From contig CALXOC010000198.1 in NCBI GenBank assembly GCA_944389915.1, positions 1 to 34,169 on the forward strand: a stretch of 34,169 nt of DNA, given 5' to 3'. A model generated the notes under the pieces. The model made no database searches. It saw only the letters and a list, made by a program, of their open reading frames with translations, and was not told the origin of the DNA. The position numbers and the translations under genes are program-made. Every line of letters starts with the position of its first letter. Position 1 is the stretch's first letter. Source of the stretch: an uncultured Opitutales bacterium. Its GTDB lineage: Bacteria; Verrucomicrobiota; Verrucomicrobiia; Opitutales; Intestinicryptomonadaceae. Shown in pieces: positions 7,482 to 32,620 of this stretch.

Positions 7482-8549
7482 TTATTTCTTAGGCAGAGGG
7501 ATTATCTGGCGCCTGACTTTCCGAGTATCCCACTCGCCGATGTTCAATTCCTTGCAGTAGTTTAATAGCGCAGGCATTGGATCTATGGGCGAAAATCCGA
7601 AGGATCGCCTGTACTTGTTTAGGGTCATCCACGATATGTAATCGAGAGCGACCGGATTCGCGCTAAGATATATGCTCTTTTCGCTAAATGTGCACCGGGA
7701 GTTAAACAGCGCCCCGCCCACAAATTGCCCCTTCTCGTAAGAGAGTATTGTGAAGATGTTCGAGTCCCTCAATTCGGGAATTGCGCAAACTTCAGCGGCC
7801 GCCATGGATGCGTTTGAGGGCTGCTTTAGGAAGCGCTCATTGTTGGACATGTTCCATATGCTGGCGTTGCCTATGGCCGCGCATACTCCGAGCCCCTCCA
7901 TATCAGTTACAACAGGCAGGTTTATCCAGAAGTCGACCGTCAGAAACAGCGGAACGGGAAGATAGCTCTTGCGCAATTCGGGATTGTATAGGTCTGTTAC
8001 TCCGGCCCCGCGCACGCTCTTGGGCATAAGCGGGTTGTCGTAGTACCATTTCTTGTCGAAAAATTCGTTGCTTTCAATATCCGCGACGTTTACCCCGCGG
8101 TAATTGTCTTTTGCCCCCGCCCGCAAGGCCGAAAGTTTTGGAAGATAGAGAGAATCCCTGAGCTTTCGGCGGCTCATATCGACTATCGTGATGTCCTCTT
8201 TTTTGTAGCCGCGCTTGAGCAGCTGCTCTATTACTGCGTCAACCAGGGCCGTAGGGGTTGCAAGCCCCGGCCCGGAGTTCGTATAGACTTTCAGCCCCAC
8301 TTTTCCCTTCTTGCCGCGCTTGATCTTGCTTCCAACCTGGCTCTCGTATGCTTTAAAAAGTGCGGAAACTGCCCGGGAATAGCTCTTGGAGTTGAAATTT
8401 GGAACTCTGCACTCAAAGACCACGTTTTTTATTGATTCCGAATCTTTAGGGGCCTCGTCGGCTGCGGAAACTTTTGCTGCGCTAAAATTCAATGCAAATA
8501 TAGCAAAAAATATTTGCATCAGAAAGATATATTTAAGATTCTTTAACAT
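7482..8549 (-). CDS. Exported DUF362-family-like protein
   Basis: 355-residue protein with an N-terminal signal peptide (hydrophobic stretch about 7-28, LKYIFLMQIFFAIFALNFSA). The body has features I associate with the DUF362 family: VGLKVYTNSGPGLATPTALV near residue 85, a VDFWINLPVVTDMEGLGVCAAIGN block near the middle and SANPVALDYISW near the C-terminus. No Cys-rich ferredoxin motif is present, although some DUF362 proteins carry one. The biochemical function is not established; some relatives are proposed to handle metal centres or redox partners. The gene is divergent from the TPR lipoprotein across 73 bp and is the first gene of the DUF362-nudix-gltX set. Family call moderate, function unknown. 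Confidence 0.65.
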   Translation of the reverse strand: MLKNLKYIFLMQIFFAIFALNFSAAKVSAADEAPKDSESIKNVVFECRVPNFNSKSYSRAVSALFKAYESQVGSKIKRGKKGKVGLKVYTNSGPGLATPTALVDAVIEQLLKRGYKKEDITIVDMSRRKLRDSLYLPKLSALRAGAKDNYRGVNVADIESNEFFDKKWYYDNPLMPKSVRGAGVTDLYNPELRKSYLPVPLFLTVDFWINLPVVTDMEGLGVCAAIGNASIWNMSNNERFLKQPSNASMAAAEVCAIPELRDSNIFTILSYEKGQFVGGALFNSRCTFSEKSIYLSANPVALDYISWMTLNKYRRSFGFSPIDPMPALLNYCKELNIGEWDTRKVRRQIIPLPKK

Positions 8550-22654: not shown

Positions 22655-23659
22655 ATGAAAATGAAGAAGTTTATAAACAATCCGGAAAATCTGACCCAGG
22701 AGTTGTTGGAGGGAATGGCTGCGGCATATCCTGAAAAGATACGTTTGGAAGAGGGGAAAATAGTAGTGAGGGCAAATCCGAAAAGCGCGGACAAAGTTGC
22801 GCTAATTACGCTTGGAGGATCCGGCCATGAGCCCGCGCTTAGCGGATTCGTCGGGCTCGGCATGCTCGATGCGAGCGTTGTGGGAGATATTTTTGCGGCT
22901 CCGAATGCGGTGTCGCTTCTGGCGGCCCTTCGCAAATTTAAGCGCGAGGCCGGGATACTTCTAATTGTTTTAAACCATGCCGGGGACGTTATGAGCGCAA
23001 ACATGGCCGTAAAGATGGCGGAGCGCGAAGGCATAAAGCTAAGAACTTTGCTTGTGTGCGACGACATAAGCGCCGGTTTGGACGCTCCCATGTCGGATAG
23101 GCGCGGCCTTGCGGGCTGCATACCGGTAATAAAAGTTGCGGGCGCGGCAGCGGAAAGCGGAGCGGGCATAGACGAGGTTTATGAAATAGCGGAGCGCTTC
23201 TCGCGCAGGGTGGCGACTCTCGCCGTTGCGATGAGGGGTTGCACCCATCCTCAGAACGGATTGCCCATTAGCGAGCTCGCAGACGACGAAATGGAAATTG
23301 GAATGGGCCAGCATGGCGAAGGCGGCGGGGGCAGGGGAAAGATACTGTCGGCCGACGACACCGCAAAGGCGATGTTTGAAAATCTCGCGAAGGCTCTTTG
23401 CTTAAAGGCTGGCGATAAAGTCTTTGCCATATTGAACGGTGTTGGAGCAACAACTCCCATGGAGCTGTCCATCGTTTTTAGAGCCGTAACAAAGTTGGCC
23501 GCCGAACGCGGGGCTGAAGTTGTAGGCGGAATAATAGACGAGATATTGACAGTGCAGGAGATGGCGGGCTTTCAGATGATACTTTGCGTTGTGGACGACG
23601 AAATTTTGAAACTTCTGCGCGCAAAGTCGGACGCTCCGTATTGGACTTGCATAGGTTAA
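22655..23659 (+). CDS. dhaK: Dihydroxyacetone kinase, DhaK subunit
   Basis: 334-residue substrate-binding subunit of a DhaK-type kinase. H220 in GMGQHGEGGGG matches the His that binds the ketose covalently, and H58 (GGSGHEP) and D111 (NHAGDVMSANMA) match the catalytic pair. AAAGGAA (22643-22649) provides a Shine-Dalgarno for ATG 22655. dhaL follows after 3 nt. No DhaM-type PTS phosphoryl donor is nearby, so the phosphoryl source may be ATP bound to DhaL, or a DhaM encoded elsewhere. Members of this family also phosphorylate tetruloses and other ketoses, so the substrate here is open. ATA is the dominant Ile codon (17 ATA, 6 ATT, 1 ATC by my reading). Confidence 0.9.
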   Translation: MKMKKFINNPENLTQELLEGMAAAYPEKIRLEEGKIVVRANPKSADKVALITLGGSGHEPALSGFVGLGMLDASVVGDIFAAPNAVSLLAALRKFKREAGILLIVLNHAGDVMSANMAVKMAEREGIKLRTLLVCDDISAGLDAPMSDRRGLAGCIPVIKVAGAAAESGAGIDEVYEIAERFSRRVATLAVAMRGCTHPQNGLPISELADDEMEIGMGQHGEGGGGRGKILSADDTAKAMFENLAKALCLKAGDKVFAILNGVGATTPMELSIVFRAVTKLAAERGAEVVGGIIDEILTVQEMAGFQMILCVVDDEILKLLRAKSDAPYWTCIG

Positions 23660-23662
23660 ATT

Positions 23663-24280
23663 ATGAACTTAACTCTGGAAAATCTAAAGAGCATGTTTGA
23701 ATCCGCCTCATGCGGCGTTGCCGCGCGTGAGAGGGAGCTGTCGGAGCTCGACTCCGTTTGCGGAGACGGAGACCACGGCTCTGCAATAACTGGGGCGATG
23801 AGGGCGGCAAGCGCCGCGGTTGCCGGAGCGTCGGATATAAAGGGTGCATTTTTTGAGGCTGGGTTTGCGGCAATGTCGCACTCAAACGGTTCCACGAGCA
23901 CTCTTCTCGGCTCTTTCTTTATGGGAATTTCCGACGGAATTGAGGCGGGAGCCGGGCAGCTTGGAGCCGCCGAATTGGCGCGCGCGTTCAAATCCGGTTT
24001 AGAGGGTATACGCGCAAACACAAAGGCGGATATTGGAGACAAAACATTGATGGACGCCCTAATTCCCGCGGTGGGTGCGATGTCGGGGAGGCCTTCGGTT
24101 GCGGAAGCCCTCTCAGCCGCGGCAAAGGCCGCGAAAGATGGCGCCGACAGCACGGCCGGCTTGCGCGCAAAATTCGGGAGGGCGCGCAATCTCGGGGAGA
24201 AATCCATAGGTTCGCTAGATGCCGGAGCGGTGTCCATGTCGATAATTTTTGCGGAATTTGCGAAGGCTTTCGGCAAATGA
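23663..24280 (+). CDS. dhaL: Dihydroxyacetone kinase, DhaL (nucleotide-binding) subunit
   Basis: 205-residue helical-barrel subunit that holds the nucleotide and transfers phosphate to the ketose on DhaK. The metal/nucleotide-binding acids are in LDSVCGDGDHG (D30, D35, D37). The GSTSTLLGSFF segment, GDKTLMDALIP and GRARNLGEKSIGSLDAGA complete the DhaL signature. It starts 3 nt after dhaK and precedes the LsrF-like gene by 54 bp in one transcriptional unit. The length is typical. Confidence 0.9.
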   Translation: MNLTLENLKSMFESASCGVAARERELSELDSVCGDGDHGSAITGAMRAASAAVAGASDIKGAFFEAGFAAMSHSNGSTSTLLGSFFMGISDGIEAGAGQLGAAELARAFKSGLEGIRANTKADIGDKTLMDALIPAVGAMSGRPSVAEALSAAAKAAKDGADSTAGLRAKFGRARNLGEKSIGSLDAGAVSMSIIFAEFAKAFGK

Positions 24281-24334: not shown

Positions 24335-25210
24335 ATGGCAGACGCGGAAGGAAACATAGAGGCTAAAAATTACGGAATAGGAATAGAGCCGGAGCGAGGG
24401 AACTTTTTTTTGAAGGGCTGTTCGAATCTCGATTGGGGCGTAAAGTATAGGCTTGGGCGCATATTCAATCCCAAGAGCGGCAACACGGTCATGCTGGCAT
24501 TCGACCACGGATATATAATGGGGCCGACAAGCGGCCTCGAGCGGGTGGATCTGAGCATAGTCCCGTTGCTCGAATTCGCAGACTGCATAATGTGCACGCG
24601 CGGAATGCTTAGAAGTTCCATACCTGCGGAATGCGGCAAGCCTCTTGCACTGCGTTTTAGCGCGGGCTCAACAATATTGACGGAACTCAACGACGAATGC
24701 CTCGCCGCCATAGAGGACGCAATAAAATTGGACGCGTGCGCGCTTGCTCCCATGGTTGCAATAGGGGGTGAATTTGAGGCAAAAACCGTAAAAAATCTTG
24801 CGCGTTGCGCAGATTTTACCGCAAAATATTCGATACCCACGCTCGGCGTTACGGCGGTAGGCAAAAACCTTTCGCGCGATTCCCGCTATTTGGGCTTAGC
24901 CACGCGGGTGTGCGCAGAAAACGGCGCCACATTTGTAAAGACCTATTATTGCGATGAGGGTTTTGAAAAGGTTGTGGCAGCCTGCCCGGTCCCTATAGTG
25001 ATAGCGGGGGGAAAAAAGCTTCCCGAAGCCGAAGCGCTTGAGCTCGCATACAAGGCGATATCGAGCGGGGCGAGAGGCGTTGACATGGGGCGCAACATAT
25101 TTCAAAGCGAATGTCCGAAAGCGATGATACAGGCCGTCAGGGGGGTTGTTCATGAAGGCATGAAGCCGGCCGAAGCCATGGAATTGTACCGCGACATAGC
25201 AAAGAATTAG
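24335..25210 (+). CDS. LsrF-like class I aldolase/thiolase
   Basis: 291-residue TIM-barrel enzyme closely resembling E. coli LsrF, the thiolase that splits 3-hydroxy-5-phosphonooxypentane-2,4-dione in AI-2 breakdown. Shared blocks include LKGCSNLDWG, MLAFDHGYIMGPTSGLER (51-70), CTRGMLRSS, the catalytic Lys202 in VKTYYCDEGFE, PVPIVIAGGKKLP and GVDMGRNIFQSE. The family also includes fructose-bisphosphate-type and other Schiff-base aldolases. No LsrK, LsrR, LsrG or Lsr transporter is in the window. Its place directly after dhaKL suggests that it cleaves the phosphorylated ketose made by that kinase. Family call strong, substrate unknown. Confidence 0.87.
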   Translation: MADAEGNIEAKNYGIGIEPERGNFFLKGCSNLDWGVKYRLGRIFNPKSGNTVMLAFDHGYIMGPTSGLERVDLSIVPLLEFADCIMCTRGMLRSSIPAECGKPLALRFSAGSTILTELNDECLAAIEDAIKLDACALAPMVAIGGEFEAKTVKNLARCADFTAKYSIPTLGVTAVGKNLSRDSRYLGLATRVCAENGATFVKTYYCDEGFEKVVAACPVPIVIAGGKKLPEAEALELAYKAISSGARGVDMGRNIFQSECPKAMIQAVRGVVHEGMKPAEAMELYRDIAKN

Positions 25211-25253
25211 GCGCCTGGTATTTTGCGCAAGGGAAATTAACGGAGGAATGTAT

Positions 25254-28200
25254 ATGAAAAAATTGGCAGTTCTGTTATTGCAATGGCTGGCGATATCGGC
25301 CTGCATGGGCGGCGCGGAGCTTTCACCAAAGGACGCTTCCGATGTGGCCGATTCCGCATATAATAAAAAGGATTCTTTTACCGAAACCGTTCTTTCAGCC
25401 CGCCGCGCTTATAAGGATTGGCAAGGCAAATGCCTTAAGGGCGATTCGTCTGTGAAGTACGGGCAATGGTACATATCGCAGTGCATAGAAAAAAATAGGA
25501 AGAACGCTTTAAGCGCAATAGATCCGACAAAAAAGCCGGTAAATGTGAATGAAGTGTTTTCACGCCGCCCTGTATGGAGCAAGTCGGACATGCCCGATTG
25601 CTCCGTCAGCGATCTGCATGCCTATAATTGGCGGCTTATAAACAATGGGGTCTTTTATCTCGTAAGGGATATAGACGCCCTTCAGCCATGCGATGTTTAC
25701 GCCACAATAGGTTTCGAGCATTTTTATAAGGTATTTCTAAACGGCAAGCAGTTGGCCGGCGTGGATAAAATGCCGAAACTCAACCTTGAAATATACAAAC
25801 TCAATCTCAATAAGGGGCGCAATACTCTGGTAATCGTGGCCTATTCCAATACAAGATTGAACCGCGACGCCTTCTACTTTGCCCCGTTTGCGGATCCTGC
25901 CGCATATATGGGAGACAAGCTTGCGACGGATTTCAAATATTATTTTCAGGTTATACACAATAGCAGGTATTCTCCAAACAAAGACAGGCTATTGCCCGTA
26001 GATTTAATTGCATCCGACGACAACCGCAACTCTTTGAAAGAGGCGATTGGCCAAATGATTGAGGCGTCGATGTTTTCGGCGAACAAATTCGAAAAAGAGT
26101 ACGCAAAAATTGCCGCCGGGAAGTCTTCCGCTGCGAATGAAGCGCGCATAAAACTGCTGGGCGACATGCTTTCCACGCTTCGCGCCGAGAAAACGCTCGG
26201 CTACGATGTCGGGAACGTCCGCGCGGCCATGGAGGATATAAAAAAGAGCTATCCCGAATACGATGCCGACGGCTCTCTCTTTTCCGAATTGAAAAAGTGG
26301 GAGTCGGAATACGGGGAACTTAAGCAAAAAATGCTCTCGCAAGTTGAGATAGGCGGAGATTTGGCTGCTCGAGCGGCGGAATTTAAGGCCTTTGCCGATA
26401 GGGCCTTGTTGGCGAATCCGCTTTTGAAAAAATATCCCAAGTGGGTGTATGTAAAGCGCCTTCCTGGCTCGAGCCGCTTGGGATTTCCTCAAAACTGGCA
26501 GGGAAATTCGACTTTGGCGTGCAAGCCGTGGGTATCGAACGACAAGCGCGATAAAAAGACGGTGGAATCCTTTAAGGACGAGCTGTGGACTTTCGACATG
26601 TCGAATCCGCGCGAGAGCAGATTGCTGTTTAAGCCGGAGTCTGGCAACATAATATGCGACCTCGACGTCTCATACGACGCCTCTAAGGTATTGTATTCCA
26701 CTTTCGACGATAAAATGCATTTTCAGCTTGCGGAATTGGACATCGCTTCTGGAAAGGTGCGCCAGATAACTCCGTCTATAAATCCCGACATAGACAATTA
26801 CGACGGCATATATCTGCCCGACGGGCGCATAGTTTACTGTTCCACGGCTTGCTATGTTGGAGTGCCCTGCGTGGGGGGAATTGACTATGTTGCGAACTTG
26901 TATTCGCTCGATCCGTCTGCCGGAGACGAAAAGGCGGTCGACGACAGCATACGCCAGCTAACTTTCGAACAGGACGCGGACTGGATGCCTACAATGCTCG
27001 AGAACGGGCGAATCATGTACACTCGCTGGGAGTATGTTGACAATTCGCACTATTTTTCGCGCATACTAATGCATATGAATCCCGACGGAACCGCGCAGTC
27101 GTCTCTTTACGGCTCTGTTAGCTATTGGCCAAATTCGCTCTTTTATGCGCGCCAGATACCGGGCGACCCGAATAAATTCATGGGGATAGTTTCTGGGCAC
27201 CACGGAATATCGAGAATGGGCGAACTTCACATGTTTGACATTTCAAAGGGCACAAAGGAGGATTCCGGCCGCGTGCACAAATTTCCCTCTTACGGCAGGG
27301 AGTATGTTGCCGAAACTAAGGACGAGCTTGTGCGTGGGAAATTCCCCCTTGTAGTGCACCCATATCCGCTGTCGGAGAACTACGTTGTGGCTTCCGTTAA
27401 GAACCCGATGGCAAACCAAGGTTTGCCGGGCATATATTTGTTGGATAAATTCGACAATATGACGCTGTTAACGGCAGTATCGCCCCACAACAAATTTGCG
27501 GAGCTGGAACCTACGCCTTTGGCCGAGCGCAAAAAGCCCGCGGCGATATCGGACAGGACCGACAGGGATTTGGATTATGGTTATGTGTTTTTAAACGACA
27601 TCTATCAGGGCGAGGGTCTCAAGGATGTTCCGCGCGGAACTGTGAAGGCTCTGCGCGTATTGGAGTATCATTACGCCTATAGAGACATGGGATCCCACGA
27701 TATTATAGCCAACGAAGGCTCGTGGGACGTCAAGCGCATTCACGGCACGGTGCCAGTGGAGGAGGACGGCTCTGCTCTTTTCAAGGTGCCCGCGAACAGG
27801 CCTATGGCAATACAGCCTTTGGATAAAGACGGCAAGGCCATAGCGCTAATGCGCACATGGTTCACGGTTATGCCGGGGGAAACGCAGAGCTGCGTTGGTT
27901 GCCATGAGGGGCAGGGAATGTCTCCCACGTTTAAGCCCGCTATGGCCTCGCGCAAGCGTCCTTCGGAAATAAAGCAATTCATAGCCGGTGTGCGCGGGTA
28001 TTCCTTTACCCGCGACGTTCAGCCTGTGCTCGACAAATACTGCGCGGGTTGCCATGACGGTAAGCGCGCCGACATACCCGATTTTTCTCGCGGTCCGGCG
28101 GTTATTAAGAAATTCCCGAGAGCATATCTCGAGTTGTCGAAATACGTGCGCAGGGGCGGGCCGGAATGCAATCAGAATATGCTTATTCCCATGGAATTTT

Positions 28201-29465
28201 ATTCCGACACCAGCGAGCTGATGCAAATACTAAGAAAAGGCCACAAAGGAGTTAAACTCGATAAAGATTCCATGGACATTCTGGTTACATGGATGGACTT
28301 GAACGTTCCGTGCGTAGGGACTTGGACCGAAATTCGCAATGATATTCCCCACAACGGAGCCGAATTGCGCAAGAAGTACCTTGCAAAATACGCAAATCGC
28401 CACGACGACCAAAACGCAATAACCTACGACGGCGGCGTGCAAAAGTTTGTAAAGCCCCAAAGTCCCAAGCCGAGGCCAAAGGGAGAATTTAAGCTTGATT
28501 GTTTCCCATTTGACGCGGCAAAGGCCGGAGAGATGCGCGATGGCGAAAATCTGCCCAAAGAGATATCGGCCGATCTCGGAGGGGGAGTGAAGCTGCGTTT
28601 GAGCCTTGTTCCCTCCGGAACTTTTGTAATGGGATCTGACACGGGATTCGGCGACGAAGGTCCCGCGCGCGTAGCGAAGGTTGAAAAACCTTTCTATATG
28701 GGTCAGTTTGAAATAACAAACAAGCAGTACTCTCTTTTCGACCGATTGCACAATTCCGGATACCTCGACAGGCAGTGGAAAGACCATGTGAATCGCGGCT
28801 ATCCTGCGAACAATCCCAACCAGCCCGTCATTCGCGTAAATTGGAATCAGGCTGTGGCTTATTGCGATTGGCTGTCAAAGAAATTCGGGGTAAAATTTTC
28901 TTTGCCGAGCGAGAAGCAGTGGGAATGGGCGGCCCGCGCGGGAACTGCCACCCCGTTCTGGTTCGGGAAGCCGGGCGATAATTACGGGCATTTTGAAAAC
29001 TTTTCGGATTTTTCCGTGAGGGATATGGCCGTTAACGGGGTGGATCCGCAACCGCGCGTCGAAAACAGCGATTTAAACAATATACAGCCCTACGACGCCT
29101 ATGCGTGCGACGGGCAGCTGTTGAGCGCGGACGTGGGAAGTTTTAAGCCAAACGCTTTCGGCTTGTACGATATGCTTGGAAACGTCTCAGAATGGACTTC
29201 GGATTCATACAGCAAAACTCTCGGGGGCGAGCCCGTAGAAGGGAAGAAAGTTGCCAGGGGCTCATCTTGGCGCGACAGGGCAAAGCGCTCAGTGGTGACA
29301 ATGCGCCGCGACTATTATCCATGGCAGAAAGTCTACAATGTAGGATTTAGGGTTGTTGTTGACGACGCCCGCCGCGCGGCCGAACTGTTCGGGAAATCCG
29401 AGCCGCTTCCCCCCTATAGGGAGCGGAACGTTAAACCGCTTGTTGACACAATACCTTCAAATTAA
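25254..29465 (+). CDS. HzsA-related di-haem protein fused to a SUMF1 domain, exported
   Basis: 1403-residue exported protein. ATG 25254 is preferred because GGAGG (25242-25246) is 7 nt upstream; ATG 25248 is too close. The signal sequence ends ISAC, a possible lipobox. In order: an N-terminal part with a galactose-binding-like beta-sandwich (about 100-225), a helical segment, and a propeller-like region related to the hydrazine synthase alpha middle domain (about 445-800; LENGRIMYTRWEYVDNSHYF, SGHHGISRMGELHMFD). Two c-type haem motifs follow, CVGCH (880-884) and CAGCH (930-934), then a SUMF1/FGE-like domain (about 1115-1370; SGTFVMGS, NVSEWTSD, NVGFRVV). The FGE catalytic cysteines are absent. 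This is not evidence for anammox, since the other Hzs subunits are absent. Probable periplasmic redox protein; reaction unknown. Confidence 0.8.
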   Translation: MKKLAVLLLQWLAISACMGGAELSPKDASDVADSAYNKKDSFTETVLSARRAYKDWQGKCLKGDSSVKYGQWYISQCIEKNRKNALSAIDPTKKPVNVNEVFSRRPVWSKSDMPDCSVSDLHAYNWRLINNGVFYLVRDIDALQPCDVYATIGFEHFYKVFLNGKQLAGVDKMPKLNLEIYKLNLNKGRNTLVIVAYSNTRLNRDAFYFAPFADPAAYMGDKLATDFKYYFQVIHNSRYSPNKDRLLPVDLIASDDNRNSLKEAIGQMIEASMFSANKFEKEYAKIAAGKSSAANEARIKLLGDMLSTLRAEKTLGYDVGNVRAAMEDIKKSYPEYDADGSLFSELKKWESEYGELKQKMLSQVEIGGDLAARAAEFKAFADRALLANPLLKKYPKWVYVKRLPGSSRLGFPQNWQGNSTLACKPWVSNDKRDKKTVESFKDELWTFDMSNPRESRLLFKPESGNIICDLDVSYDASKVLYSTFDDKMHFQLAELDIASGKVRQITPSINPDIDNYDGIYLPDGRIVYCSTACYVGVPCVGGIDYVANLYSLDPSAGDEKAVDDSIRQLTFEQDADWMPTMLENGRIMYTRWEYVDNSHYFSRILMHMNPDGTAQSSLYGSVSYWPNSLFYARQIPGDPNKFMGIVSGHHGISRMGELHMFDISKGTKEDSGRVHKFPSYGREYVAETKDELVRGKFPLVVHPYPLSENYVVASVKNPMANQGLPGIYLLDKFDNMTLLTAVSPHNKFAELEPTPLAERKKPAAISDRTDRDLDYGYVFLNDIYQGEGLKDVPRGTVKALRVLEYHYAYRDMGSHDIIANEGSWDVKRIHGTVPVEEDGSALFKVPANRPMAIQPLDKDGKAIALMRTWFTVMPGETQSCVGCHEGQGMSPTFKPAMASRKRPSEIKQFIAGVRGYSFTRDVQPVLDKYCAGCHDGKRADIPDFSRGPAVIKKFPRAYLELSKYVRRGGPECNQNMLIPMEFYSDTSELMQILRKGHKGVKLDKDSMDILVTWMDLNVPCVGTWTEIRNDIPHNGAELRKKYLAKYANRHDDQNAITYDGGVQKFVKPQSPKPRPKGEFKLDCFPFDAAKAGEMRDGENLPKEISADLGGGVKLRLSLVPSGTFVMGSDTGFGDEGPARVAKVEKPFYMGQFEITNKQYSLFDRLHNSGYLDRQWKDHVNRGYPANNPNQPVIRVNWNQAVAYCDWLSKKFGVKFSLPSEKQWEWAARAGTATPFWFGKPGDNYGHFENFSDFSVRDMAVNGVDPQPRVENSDLNNIQPYDAYACDGQLLSADVGSFKPNAFGLYDMLGNVSEWTSDSYSKTLGGEPVEGKKVARGSSWRDRAKRSVVTMRRDYYPWQKVYNVGFRVVVDDARRAAELFGKSEPLPPYRERNVKPLVDTIPSN

Positions 29466-29482
29466 GAAATAGGATATATAAA

Positions 29483-30184
29483 ATGAAAAAAACAACAATT
29501 GCAATAACTTCACTGATGGCGGCGCTTTTTCTCGGCGCATGCGCTTCGTCTTCGGAAACGTCTGGCGTCTCTGAACCAAAAGCTTGTCCGACTGTGTCGG
29601 CACAAAAAAAACTTACAAAGGATATGTTCTACGATAAAGATGGAAAATTCAACGAAGAAGCGGCGAAACAGGCCTACTTCGACATGTTTGAACGGCTTGG
29701 ATATCCCGTTAGCGATACGCTTCGCAAGGGCATGTGGGTATCCGACTTTAACCTGAAAGATTTTCCGAATGTTGGAATGGCGGGGATATTTTGGGCGCAC
29801 GAAAACAAGCACGGCGTATTCGGGCACGAGATATTTTTGTTGCCGAACCAAATGCTTGTGGAACACAAGCATGTTGCTGGCAAGGGGCTTCCCGCAAAGT
29901 ACGAGTGCTGGCAGGCGAGAGCCGGAAGCGCCTATTGCTTTGGCGAGAGCGGTGACGATGCTTCAAAGTATCCTAACGTGAAAGTTCCCGACAGCCAAAA
30001 GAAGTTTGTTACGGTAAATAAAGTTTCAAGGGCATGTTCAAAGGAGGGCAATACCGTTTGGCTCAATAGAACCGAAGCCAGCCACTATATGATTGCCGGG
30101 CCCTCGGGCGCCATAGTTACCGAATACGGCGCGTTTCACGACAACGACAACAACAGGTATACAAATCCGAATGTAGCGTTTTAA
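29483..30184 (+). CDS. Cupin-fold lipoprotein, D-lyxose-isomerase-like
   Basis: 233-residue lipoprotein with lipobox LGAC (Cys20). The C-terminal two thirds look like a cupin: H128 and H130 (VEHKH), E141 (KYECW) and H201 (ASHYM) form an HxH...E...H metal set. Flanking segments (HEIFLLPNQM, CWQARAGSAYCFGE, TEYGAFHDNDNNRYTNP) recall the D-lyxose isomerase/YdaE group of sugar isomerases. An exported, lipid-anchored member is unusual, as that group is typically cytoplasmic. It follows the HzsA-like gene by 17 bp and ends the operon before a bidirectional terminator. Metal-binding cupin is fairly sure; isomerase activity is inference. Confidence 0.68.
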   Translation: MKKTTIAITSLMAALFLGACASSSETSGVSEPKACPTVSAQKKLTKDMFYDKDGKFNEEAAKQAYFDMFERLGYPVSDTLRKGMWVSDFNLKDFPNVGMAGIFWAHENKHGVFGHEIFLLPNQMLVEHKHVAGKGLPAKYECWQARAGSAYCFGESGDDASKYPNVKVPDSQKKFVTVNKVSRACSKEGNTVWLNRTEASHYMIAGPSGAIVTEYGAFHDNDNNRYTNPNVAF

Positions 30185-30262: not shown

Positions 30263-31570
30263 TTAAAATGTAACTAATAGCTGTCCGCCCAAGACCAGGG
30301 CGTCGTCGGCATTGGGATTCCCGTACGGCCTCATTACATATTGAATGTCTGGCTGTATGGAGATGTTTTCGTTTATTTGAAATACATATGTGGCTTCAAG
30401 TACGGTTTCATAAGTTGAAACGTAGCCGTTGTTTGCCGGGCTGTATGAGTTTGAATATCCGCTTCCGAACCAGCCGGTCAGCCAGGACAAGTATATCCCG
30501 TCTTGGCTTCTATATGGAATAAATCCCTGAAATTGAATTCCGGCGTATGTCATCCATGTCATGACGGATATGCTTTCCACCGGCGAATATTGCGCTCCGG
30601 CCCAAACGTTTATATAGCGGTTTACATTGCTTTGGTCTACCCATACGACTTGCTGCCCCTGCAGATAGAAGCCGTATCCGTTATTGCGCGTCGCTCCCGT
30701 TGTGCTTGTGTAGTCCTGCATGGCGTATCCGCCGAAGAAGTATCCGCCTATCTGGTATTGGCCGGCGTACCCGCCGTTGTCTTCCTGAAAGAAGGTCGGA
30801 GTCCATTGGGCTTGGAACATGAGCATATAGCCGTCGTTTTCGTCTATCCCAAAATGCGTGCCGTTCCAGCTTGGAGAGGCCATCTCCGGCATTACCTGGT
30901 AGAGGCCCGCGGCAAGAGATATGTCGTTTTCATTAAAATAGTATTGGAGCGTCATTCCCCATGCGGCAACGGGGGAAGATGTATATGGAGAGTTATAGAA
31001 AATCGCCTCGGGGGTGCTGTCTATTCCTCCGCTCACAAGATAGCCAAACACGGGCAAACTTGCAAAAGTGTCCCCCATGCTCATTCTTCCAAGCCGTATT
31101 TTTACTGTGTCTCCCCATGAGGTATCAATGCTTTGGGCAAGGTACATTTCATAGAACATCGCCCCGTCGGTTACGCTCGATTCCGACACCGTAAAAAAAT
31201 TCCCTATTTTGTTGGAAAGGTTGTCTCCGGCGTTATAGGCGCCAGACACCACAAACTTTGCCCCCTTCCAATTCGCGATTTTTTCAAGGTCGGCAATGAT
31301 TCCGTAGAGCATTTCGTGCGTGTAATTGGTGCCCTGCAGTTGCCCGCCGTAGGGATTGGACACAAGCACGGCGTAATAGTCGAAGAAGAATTTTATTCCG
31401 GTGTCGCCATAAAGCGATGCTTTTGCCTTGTTTAATTCGTTGCTTGCGTAGTTTAGCCCAAAATTTCCGTAGGGTAGATTGTAATCGCCCCCGGAATTTT
31501 GCTGGGCATTGATTTCACCGGCGAACGGAAGCGACAATAACGCCGCGGCGGCAATTAGAGATTTTTTCAT
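30263..31570 (-). CDS. OprB-family carbohydrate-selective porin
   Basis: 435-residue outer-membrane beta-barrel. ATG 31570 is chosen: it gives a clean signal peptide (KKSLIAAAALLSLPFAGEINA) and AAGGAA lies 7 nt upstream on the minus strand. The mature protein is rich in Gly, Tyr, Asn and Trp with alternating strands and ends in a terminal Phe (GGQLLVTF), as expected for BAM-inserted barrels. Segments such as GRMSMGDTFASLPVFG and EATYVFQINENISIQPDIQYVMRP match OprB porins, which pass mono- and disaccharides. It converges on the dhaK-to-cupin operon and lies downstream of iclR, so it is a likely uptake channel for that pathway's sugar. It appears to have its own promoter. Confidence 0.85.
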   Translation of the reverse strand: MKKSLIAAAALLSLPFAGEINAQQNSGGDYNLPYGNFGLNYASNELNKAKASLYGDTGIKFFFDYYAVLVSNPYGGQLQGTNYTHEMLYGIIADLEKIANWKGAKFVVSGAYNAGDNLSNKIGNFFTVSESSVTDGAMFYEMYLAQSIDTSWGDTVKIRLGRMSMGDTFASLPVFGYLVSGGIDSTPEAIFYNSPYTSSPVAAWGMTLQYYFNENDISLAAGLYQVMPEMASPSWNGTHFGIDENDGYMLMFQAQWTPTFFQEDNGGYAGQYQIGGYFFGGYAMQDYTSTTGATRNNGYGFYLQGQQVVWVDQSNVNRYINVWAGAQYSPVESISVMTWMTYAGIQFQGFIPYRSQDGIYLSWLTGWFGSGYSNSYSPANNGYVSTYETVLEATYVFQINENISIQPDIQYVMRPYGNPNADDALVLGGQLLVTF

Positions 31571-31612
31571 AGAGCTTTCCTTATTTTTATATGTTAAAAA
31601 GGTGTATGCACA

Positions 31613-31639
31613 ATTATAATAAAACGAATTAATATTAAT
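31613..31639 (-). promoter_or_regulatory. Putative oprB promoter with an overlapping palindrome
   Basis: On the minus strand TATAAT (31618-31613) lies about 43 bp before the porin start codon. Just upstream is the perfect 12-bp palindrome ATTAATATTAAT (31628-31639), in the spacer/-35 zone where a repressor or activator would bind. AT richness lowers the weight of the match. Confidence 0.42.
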
Positions 31640-31740
31640 AAATATCGGAGACTTTCCCTCCGCGTTTAGGAAGTAAATAAACATTAATTTGGTGCGTTGC
31701 GCTTAAGGGGGGCCGCGCATTAAAAAATCACGCCAGGCCT

Positions 31741-31822: not shown

Positions 31823-32620
31823 TCAGATTAGGCCGTAGCCCAGGCGCACTGAAATTGTATCCGCGAAAGAGCGCACAGCAGTCCCTATTTCAGCGAAATT
31901 TTCCTCTTTTATCCGCTCCTTAGGGCCTGTTATCCATATTGCCGCAACGGGATAGCCATGCGCATCAAATACGGGGGCGCCAACGCAGTTAACCCCGTCA
32001 ATTTCCTCGCTGTTATCGAGCGAATAACCGCATGCCCTCACCTTTTCAAGCTCGGATAAGAATGAGCGCTTGTCTGTAATGGTGTTATTATTGTATCGAT
32101 GGAATTTAATTTTCTTTAGGCGCTTTTCAAGTTCGTCTTTTGGCAGGTATGCCAGCATTGCCTTGCCGGGGGCGGAGGCGTGGAAACATATGCTCATTCC
32201 AACCTCTCCCAAAAATTTGAACGGGAATGTCCCCGGGGCCTGCTCAATCATGACGCATGCGTCTTCAAGCATGGTTCCAAGCATTGAAGTCTCGCCGAGT
32301 TTGTCGCGCATCTGCCTTAGAATGTCCATGCTGCGCTCGACTATGTTGAATTCTCCGAATGAGGCGTATCCCAAAGCCGCCAATTTGCGCGACATCCTTA
32401 TTGTGCGCTCGTCGGCGTTTTTTAGCACATATCCGCAGTCTTCAAGGGTACAAACTATGCGAAATATGCTGCTCTTTGAATATTTTGTAAGCTTTGCTAT
32501 TTCAGGCAAAGTTAAGCCGTCAGGGTTTTTTGCAAGAAGTTCAAAAACTTCCAAACCCCGTTTTAAGTTTGGAACATGGTAGCGTTCGTGGCTTTTTTTT
32601 GTGGTGCTTGTTCTCGGCAT
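31823..32620 (-). CDS. IclR-family transcriptional regulator
   Basis: 265-residue regulator. The N-terminal winged helix-turn-helix (about 15-75) contains LTLPEIAKLTKYSKSSIFRIVCTLEDCGYV. The C-terminal effector domain (about 95-255) has the IclR pattern MLGTMLEDACVMIEQAPG, the FHASAPGKAMLAYLP block and CGYSLDNSEEIDGVNCVGAPVFDAHGYPVAAIWITGP. IclR regulators usually sense small acids or sugars and control adjacent catabolic genes, so the porin gene and the dhaK operon are plausible targets. The start has no Shine-Dalgarno. A sigma-70-like promoter with an inverted repeat in its spacer lies upstream, suggesting autoregulation. Confidence 0.92.
   Translation of the reverse strand: MPRTSTTKKSHERYHVPNLKRGLEVFELLAKNPDGLTLPEIAKLTKYSKSSIFRIVCTLEDCGYVLKNADERTIRMSRKLAALGYASFGEFNIVERSMDILRQMRDKLGETSMLGTMLEDACVMIEQAPGTFPFKFLGEVGMSICFHASAPGKAMLAYLPKDELEKRLKKIKFHRYNNNTITDKRSFLSELEKVRACGYSLDNSEEIDGVNCVGAPVFDAHGYPVAAIWITGPKERIKEENFAEIGTAVRSFADTISVRLGYGLI

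Follow-up and report, generated by a model that had tools for sequence, protein, structure and literature searches.

The stretch of DNA analysed here (the window) comprises 34,169 nucleotides of contig CALXOC010000198.1 from an uncultured Opitutales bacterium. On its forward strand it encodes an exported protein of 1405 residues (positions 25248-29465), which, according to its open reading frame (ORF), Pfam, AlphaFold2 and Foldseek, fuses a core resembling the alpha subunit of hydrazine synthase (HZS) to a SUMF1 domain. An earlier note on this DNA had recognised the same ORF but started it at 25254, which is the in-frame Met3; the ORF begins at 25248. From reading of the sequence, the N-terminus resembles a signal sequence, in which a lipobox-like motif, ISAC, ends at Cys19 (25248-25304). 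This lipobox is not kept in the orthologues, the N-termini of which look exported as well.

The architecture of the fusion protein was obtained from two AlphaFold2 models, for which the window protein was aligned with its homologues, covering residues 20-1085 (pLDDT 89) and residues 385-1400 (pLDDT 88, pTM 0.90; pTM range 0.88-0.90). Along the chain, the models place a beta-rich, sandwich-like block (about residues 69-212; 25452-25883), a helical region (about residues 217-395; 25896-26432), a beta-propeller of the HZS-alpha/TolB type (about residues 398-762; 26439-27533), the haem region and the SUMF1 fold. Pfam identified the HZS_alpha middle domain PF18582 at residues 797-887 (27636-27908; E 3.1e-33) and the SUMF1/FGE-sulfatase domain PF03781 at residues 1120-1370 (28605-29357; E 2.5e-42). 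The best match of the core in the PDB was hydrazine synthase alpha, 5c2v, with a Foldseek E-value of 8e-30 and a Z-score of 32.7 (root-mean-square deviation 3.0 over 563 residues). The C-terminal part was closest to PvdO (5hha, Z 28.0), followed by human FGE at Z ~24. No counterpart of the N-terminal beta block appeared among these fold matches, for which the block was not used as a query by itself, and this does not argue for a new fold. The fusion architecture is thus very firmly supported. The earlier note had read the protein as an exported polypeptide with beta-sandwich, HzsA-like propeller, two CxxCH sites and SUMF1 domain, and had proposed structure prediction and comparison with hydrazine synthase alpha as a check; Pfam, the models and the fold matches agree with it on each of these elements, the propeller included, and PF18582 together with the match to 5c2v bears out the resemblance to HzsA.

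The two haem c motifs are CVGCH at residues 882-886 (27891-27905) and CAGCH at residues 932-936 (28041-28055). Both are invariant in 91 fused homologues: each of the 91 aligned proteins contains exactly two CxxCH motifs, in identical columns, so that a chance occurrence can be dismissed. Cys541, His601, His651, His652 and His999 were kept almost without exception in the same set. His999 (28242-28244) is, from its conservation and the profile alignment, a candidate distal ligand of haem 2. Since it falls no more than two columns away from the distal haem-II histidine of HZS alpha, a bis-histidine ligation of haem 2 is plausible. That the protein binds haem at all is suggested by the conservation of the CxxCH motifs and by the cytochrome c maturation genes of sister genomes.

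Judged from its residues, the fusion protein belongs to neither the hydrazine synthases nor the FGEs, although it is built like both. In HzsA, the histidine of the first CxxCH motif binds zinc and Tyr591 is the proximal ligand of haem alpha-I (PMC12607021). Tyr591 aligns with Gly890 of the window protein, and the equivalent column in the 91 fused proteins holds asparagine (63), glycine (17) or serine (7) in 87 cases and tyrosine in only one. Hydrazine synthesis was rejected because this haem ligand is not conserved. The NCBIfam model hydrazine_alpha gave the window protein 51.9 bits, against a cut-off of 800 bits. Cys303, a zinc ligand of HzsA, is not present in all anammox bacteria (PMC12758564); the profile alignment of the fused proteins showed no conserved cysteine in this region, which aligns weakly. 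With HzsA of the anammox Brocadiia (5c2v), the fusion protein shares the propeller, PF18582, the two haem c motifs in the same order and a histidine near the distal haem-II ligand; it differs by the lack of Tyr591, by an additional beta/helical region at the N-terminus and a SUMF1 domain at the C-terminus, and in that the fused proteins form another clade and sit in another operon. As for the SUMF1 domain, it shares its fold with PvdO and FGE but is joined to a cytochrome-like core, and no cysteine occurs in the window protein at the positions aligned with the catalytic pair of human FGE (Cys336/Cys341). Any cysteine in this segment is absent in 78 of the 91 homologues and no conserved cysteine substitutes for the pair; formylglycine generation was rejected on the ground of this missing pair. 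An EgtB-type non-haem iron sulfoxide synthase was considered too; Pfam found no DinB-type domain in the window protein.

In the phylogenetic tree, all fused proteins form one clade (SH-aLRT 99), and the only entry labelled unfused within it, L039, ends at a contig edge. By organism name, fused proteins occur in Verrucomicrobiota, Planctomycetota, Lentisphaerota, Kiritimatiellota, Hydrogenedentota, Armatimonadota and Bacteroidota, and also in one metagenome bin each under the labels Spirochaetes and Nitrospiraceae. An artefactual gene fusion was rejected because the fused form recurs as one clade across many phyla. The expectation that HzsA-like relatives occur in bacteria of the Planctomycetes-Verrucomicrobia-Chlamydiae (PVC) group was correct, but they are not confined to it, since gut Bacteroidota have them as well; a strong homologue was present in 7 of 301 sampled genomes of the Bacteroides cellulosilyticus family. 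The window's own genome contains another complete copy of the HZS-alpha/SUMF1 fusion, with 66% identity, outside the operon described below (contig 138, 3033-7139; L002), and four further HZS-alpha-like proteins without SUMF1 match (L003-L006; contigs 32, 11, 132 and 41), three of which carry F5/8 type C or polysaccharide-lyase domains resembling carbohydrate-binding modules (CBMs). Several HZS-alpha-like genes are clustered in the Planctomycetota/Verrucomicrobia loci L043, L050, L061, L071, L086 and L091. In relative G004, the reported span of the match to the HZS-alpha/SUMF1 orthologue (L013, C6) contains two in-frame stops, TAG and TAA; they may lie at the ends of the span, or indicate a pseudogene or a sequence error.

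Hydrazine synthase is the signature enzyme of anammox and was long believed to stand alone. Homologues of its alpha and beta-gamma subunits outside anammox have been described without an assigned reaction, and those studied were judged incapable of hydrazine production (PMC12758564); this agrees with the earlier note, which knew of no reaction for such proteins. The homologues of clades I-IV in that paper resemble the present system in that alpha adjoins beta-gamma, key HZS residues are gone and no reaction is assigned. The operon with dihydroxyacetone-type kinase, LsrF and cupin and the alpha proteins of gut Bacteroidota are not described in the passages of the paper that were consulted; these clades may overlap with the fused clade. 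Neither SUMF1 nor sulfatase occurs in the main text of PMC12758564. Our literature searches for a function of proteins with PF18582, or of their fusion to SUMF1, returned anammox papers only, and found no earlier description of the DhaKL/LsrF/cupin operon context of an HZS-alpha-like protein. HZS homologues outside anammox were thus already known; new here, as far as the papers searched show, is the SUMF1-fused variant with its operon context.

In the window, the fusion gene is the fourth of five genes on the forward strand, separated by four gaps of 3-54 bases. They encode a DhaK-type kinase subunit (22655-23659), with a conserved catalytic-type His220 that we take to be the histidine of the DhaK active site, a DhaL-type kinase subunit (23663-24280), an LsrF-type aldolase/thiolase (24335-25210), the haem protein and an exported cupin lipoprotein of 233 residues (29483-30184). 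Linkage to a sugar kinase and an aldolase, as first noted, was confirmed, with the same genes recurring across several phyla, but the kinase is of the split dihydroxyacetone type and the aldolase is an LsrF-type aldolase/thiolase. The latter scored 433 bits against the 297-bit cut-off of the LsrF equivalog, matched E. coli LsrF with E 1e-130, and its Lys202 aligns with the lysine of the LsrF motif IKTYY. By sequence and active-site lysine it is a clear LsrF, predicted to carry out thiolysis of phospho-hydroxypentanedione. The cupin had no Pfam match but resembles the D-lyxose/D-mannose isomerase 7nzo (E 1.4e-23); its invariant His128, His130, Glu141 and His201 would form the metal-ligand set. 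An OprB-family carbohydrate-selective porin adjoins the operon on the reverse strand (30263-31684), its membership being uncertain.

Homologues in Bacteroides, Parabacteroides, Rikenella, Dysgonomonas and Akkermansiaceae are flanked by the same gene set, with identities across these genomes of 61-84% for the aldolase and 57-79% for DhaK. A chance neighbourhood was rejected because the set recurs across phyla. In Bacteroidota, the clusters additionally encode an HZS beta-gamma homologue and the cytochrome c maturation protein ResB/CcsB, together with a chorismatase/Rid-like protein, a protein of glyoxalase fold and an exported propeller. In a neighbourhood clustering of 80 fetched loci, beta-gamma was found in 25, and cupin, DhaK, LsrF or ResB/CcsB in 15-18 each. 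Bacteroidota beta-gamma homologues matched the NCBIfam model hydrazine_BC with E-values of 1e-25 and 5e-50, and both CxxCH motifs were present in all 44 beta-gamma proteins. The B. cellulosilyticus cluster is bordered on both sides by hybrid two-component regulators of the type found at polysaccharide utilisation loci (PULs), and a GH88 gene accompanies it. As a separate observation, the chorismatase (FkbO/Hyg5)/Rid-like protein, for example L093:3075-4241, recurs regularly in the clusters of Bacteroidota.

In a set of 54 relatives, most occurrences of the SUMF1-fused haem protein, LsrF, cupin and beta-gamma fell within the family of the window organism, where the haem protein is present, whole or in pieces, in every member but G011. 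This genome of the same genus, a single contig at 95% completeness, lacks the haem protein, LsrF, cupin, beta-gamma and ResB altogether. We consider this joint absence supportive but not decisive, as it represents one event in related genomes.

The explanation that best accounts for these data as a whole, which we put forward tentatively, is that of a periplasmic haem complex on the plan of hydrazine synthase, that subjects a compound derived from a sugar to a redox reaction and feeds the enzymes of the operon. The fusion protein would be the alpha-like subunit of this complex, catalysing another reaction than hydrazine synthase, with the propeller and the two c-type haems as redox core; the SUMF1 fold, which would not act as an FGE, probably serves in binding or positioning the substrate. 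Its partner would probably be the two-haem beta-gamma homologue, encoded elsewhere in the window's genome and adjoining in other phyla; judging from the sequences, such an alpha/beta-gamma partnership is likely. The exported cupin may isomerise the substrate or the product as an aldose/ketose pair, an imported hydroxyketone would then be phosphorylated by DhaK/DhaL, and the LsrF-type enzyme would split the phosphorylated compound into dihydroxyacetone phosphate (DHAP) and a two-carbon unit. This cleavage is modelled on the reaction of LsrF as known from the Lsr pathway; we infer the class of the substrate and the order and direction of the steps. A carbohydrate theme is indicated by the CBM-type domains on the paralogues, the OprB-type porin beside the operon, and the PUL-type regulators and GH88 at the B. 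cellulosilyticus cluster. Oxidation of a carbohydrate with electrons handed to haem is plausible, and a carbohydrate as reactant is a provisional assignment that may well need revision.

Several observations weigh against this proposal. The co-occurrence comes from one family and is phylogenetically non-independent, and LsrF occurs in relative G049 even though the haem protein is absent there. In the window's genus the beta-gamma gene lies outside the operon: in relative G001 (L160, C1:483000-496000) it adjoins a different HZS-alpha-like paralogue, not the orthologue of the window protein, and in the window's genome its ORF ends at a contig edge. Many Planctomycetota homologues have no kinase, LsrF or cupin neighbours, and the role of the haem protein is therefore wider than the operon. 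Finally, the check for cytochrome c maturation suggested by the earlier note gave a divided answer: our searches found no ResB/CcsA in the window's own draft genome, whereas the system is present in sister genomes. An assembly gap would be the likely cause, since ResB is present in 11 of the 12 other genomes of the genus with the haem protein, and the draft also gave no match to YchF, the gene for which stands before resB-ccsA in sister genomes; an empty search by itself is no proof. A CcsA-like ORF on C172 of the same genome stayed under the PF01578 cut-off and adjoins a ferrochelatase-like ORF; it was set aside as HemX-like and not a cytochrome maturation protein.

Two other roles for the system appear improbable, to about the same degree. 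The haem protein could serve anaerobic respiration, either passing electrons along the chain or acting as its terminal oxidoreductase; SUMF1 and sandwich would then be binding modules and the metabolic operon just co-regulated. The two c-haem motifs, the candidate distal histidine of haem 2 and the Planctomycetota that have the haem protein without the operon genes would fit this. The operon gene content, however, is kept across Verrucomicrobiota and Bacteroidota, and LsrF and cupin are absent along with the haem protein in G011. Equally, the system could scavenge 1-deoxy-pentose dicarbonyls resembling autoinducer-2 (AI-2), with DhaKL in place of LsrK, a glyoxalase-fold protein in place of LsrG, thiolysis by LsrF and a haem complex that makes or conditions the dicarbonyl. 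The clear LsrF with its lysine, shared with the E. coli Lsr pathway, the catalytic-type histidine of DhaK and the VOC/glyoxalase-fold protein of the Bacteroidota clusters argue for it. The window operon differs from the E. coli pathway, however, in having a split kinase of the dihydroxyacetone type, a periplasmic cupin isomerase and a haem complex, the latter two having no role in known AI-2 uptake; no VOC gene was identified in the window, and no Lsr-type transporter or LsrK was seen in the clusters, a genome-wide search for LsrK not having been made. Nitrogen chemistry as in hydrazine synthase, for instance turnover of nitric oxide or hydroxylamine in detoxification or respiration with kinase and aldolase merely supplying carbon, is quite unlikely: the alpha fold with two haem motifs and the two-haem beta-gamma homologue match HZS, but Tyr591 is replaced in nearly all fused proteins, the profile alignment shows no conserved cysteine in the weakly aligning Cys303 region, the operon partners are carbon enzymes, HZS haem gamma-I has a third cysteine bond (PMC12758564), whereas the beta-gamma homologues have no conserved cysteine outside the two CxxCH motifs, and the non-anammox homologues studied in that paper were judged unable to make hydrazine.

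It is possible, though doubtful at present, that the periplasmic haem complex proposed above, made of alpha-SUMF1 and beta-gamma, is a new HZS-type enzyme which, in gut Verrucomicrobiota as well as in cultured human gut Bacteroides, drives a hitherto undescribed carbohydrate pathway, with cleavage by the LsrF-type enzyme into DHAP and a two-carbon unit as its last step. If true, cultured human gut Bacteroides, which are genetically tractable, would possess alpha and beta-gamma homologues as a conserved module of their metabolism, and the role of the haem architecture outside anammox could be learned from them. Such a finding would provide a test bed for the chemistry and evolution of this architecture, uncover a pathway of gut anaerobes that depends on haem and give a new context to LsrF and D-lyxose-isomerase-type enzymes.

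Among the remaining genes of the window, a 355-residue ORF on the reverse strand (7482-8549) is without Pfam or NCBIfam match. Beyond the porin, also on the reverse strand, lies a gene for an IclR-family regulator (31823-32620), and IclR genes recur next to homologous clusters.

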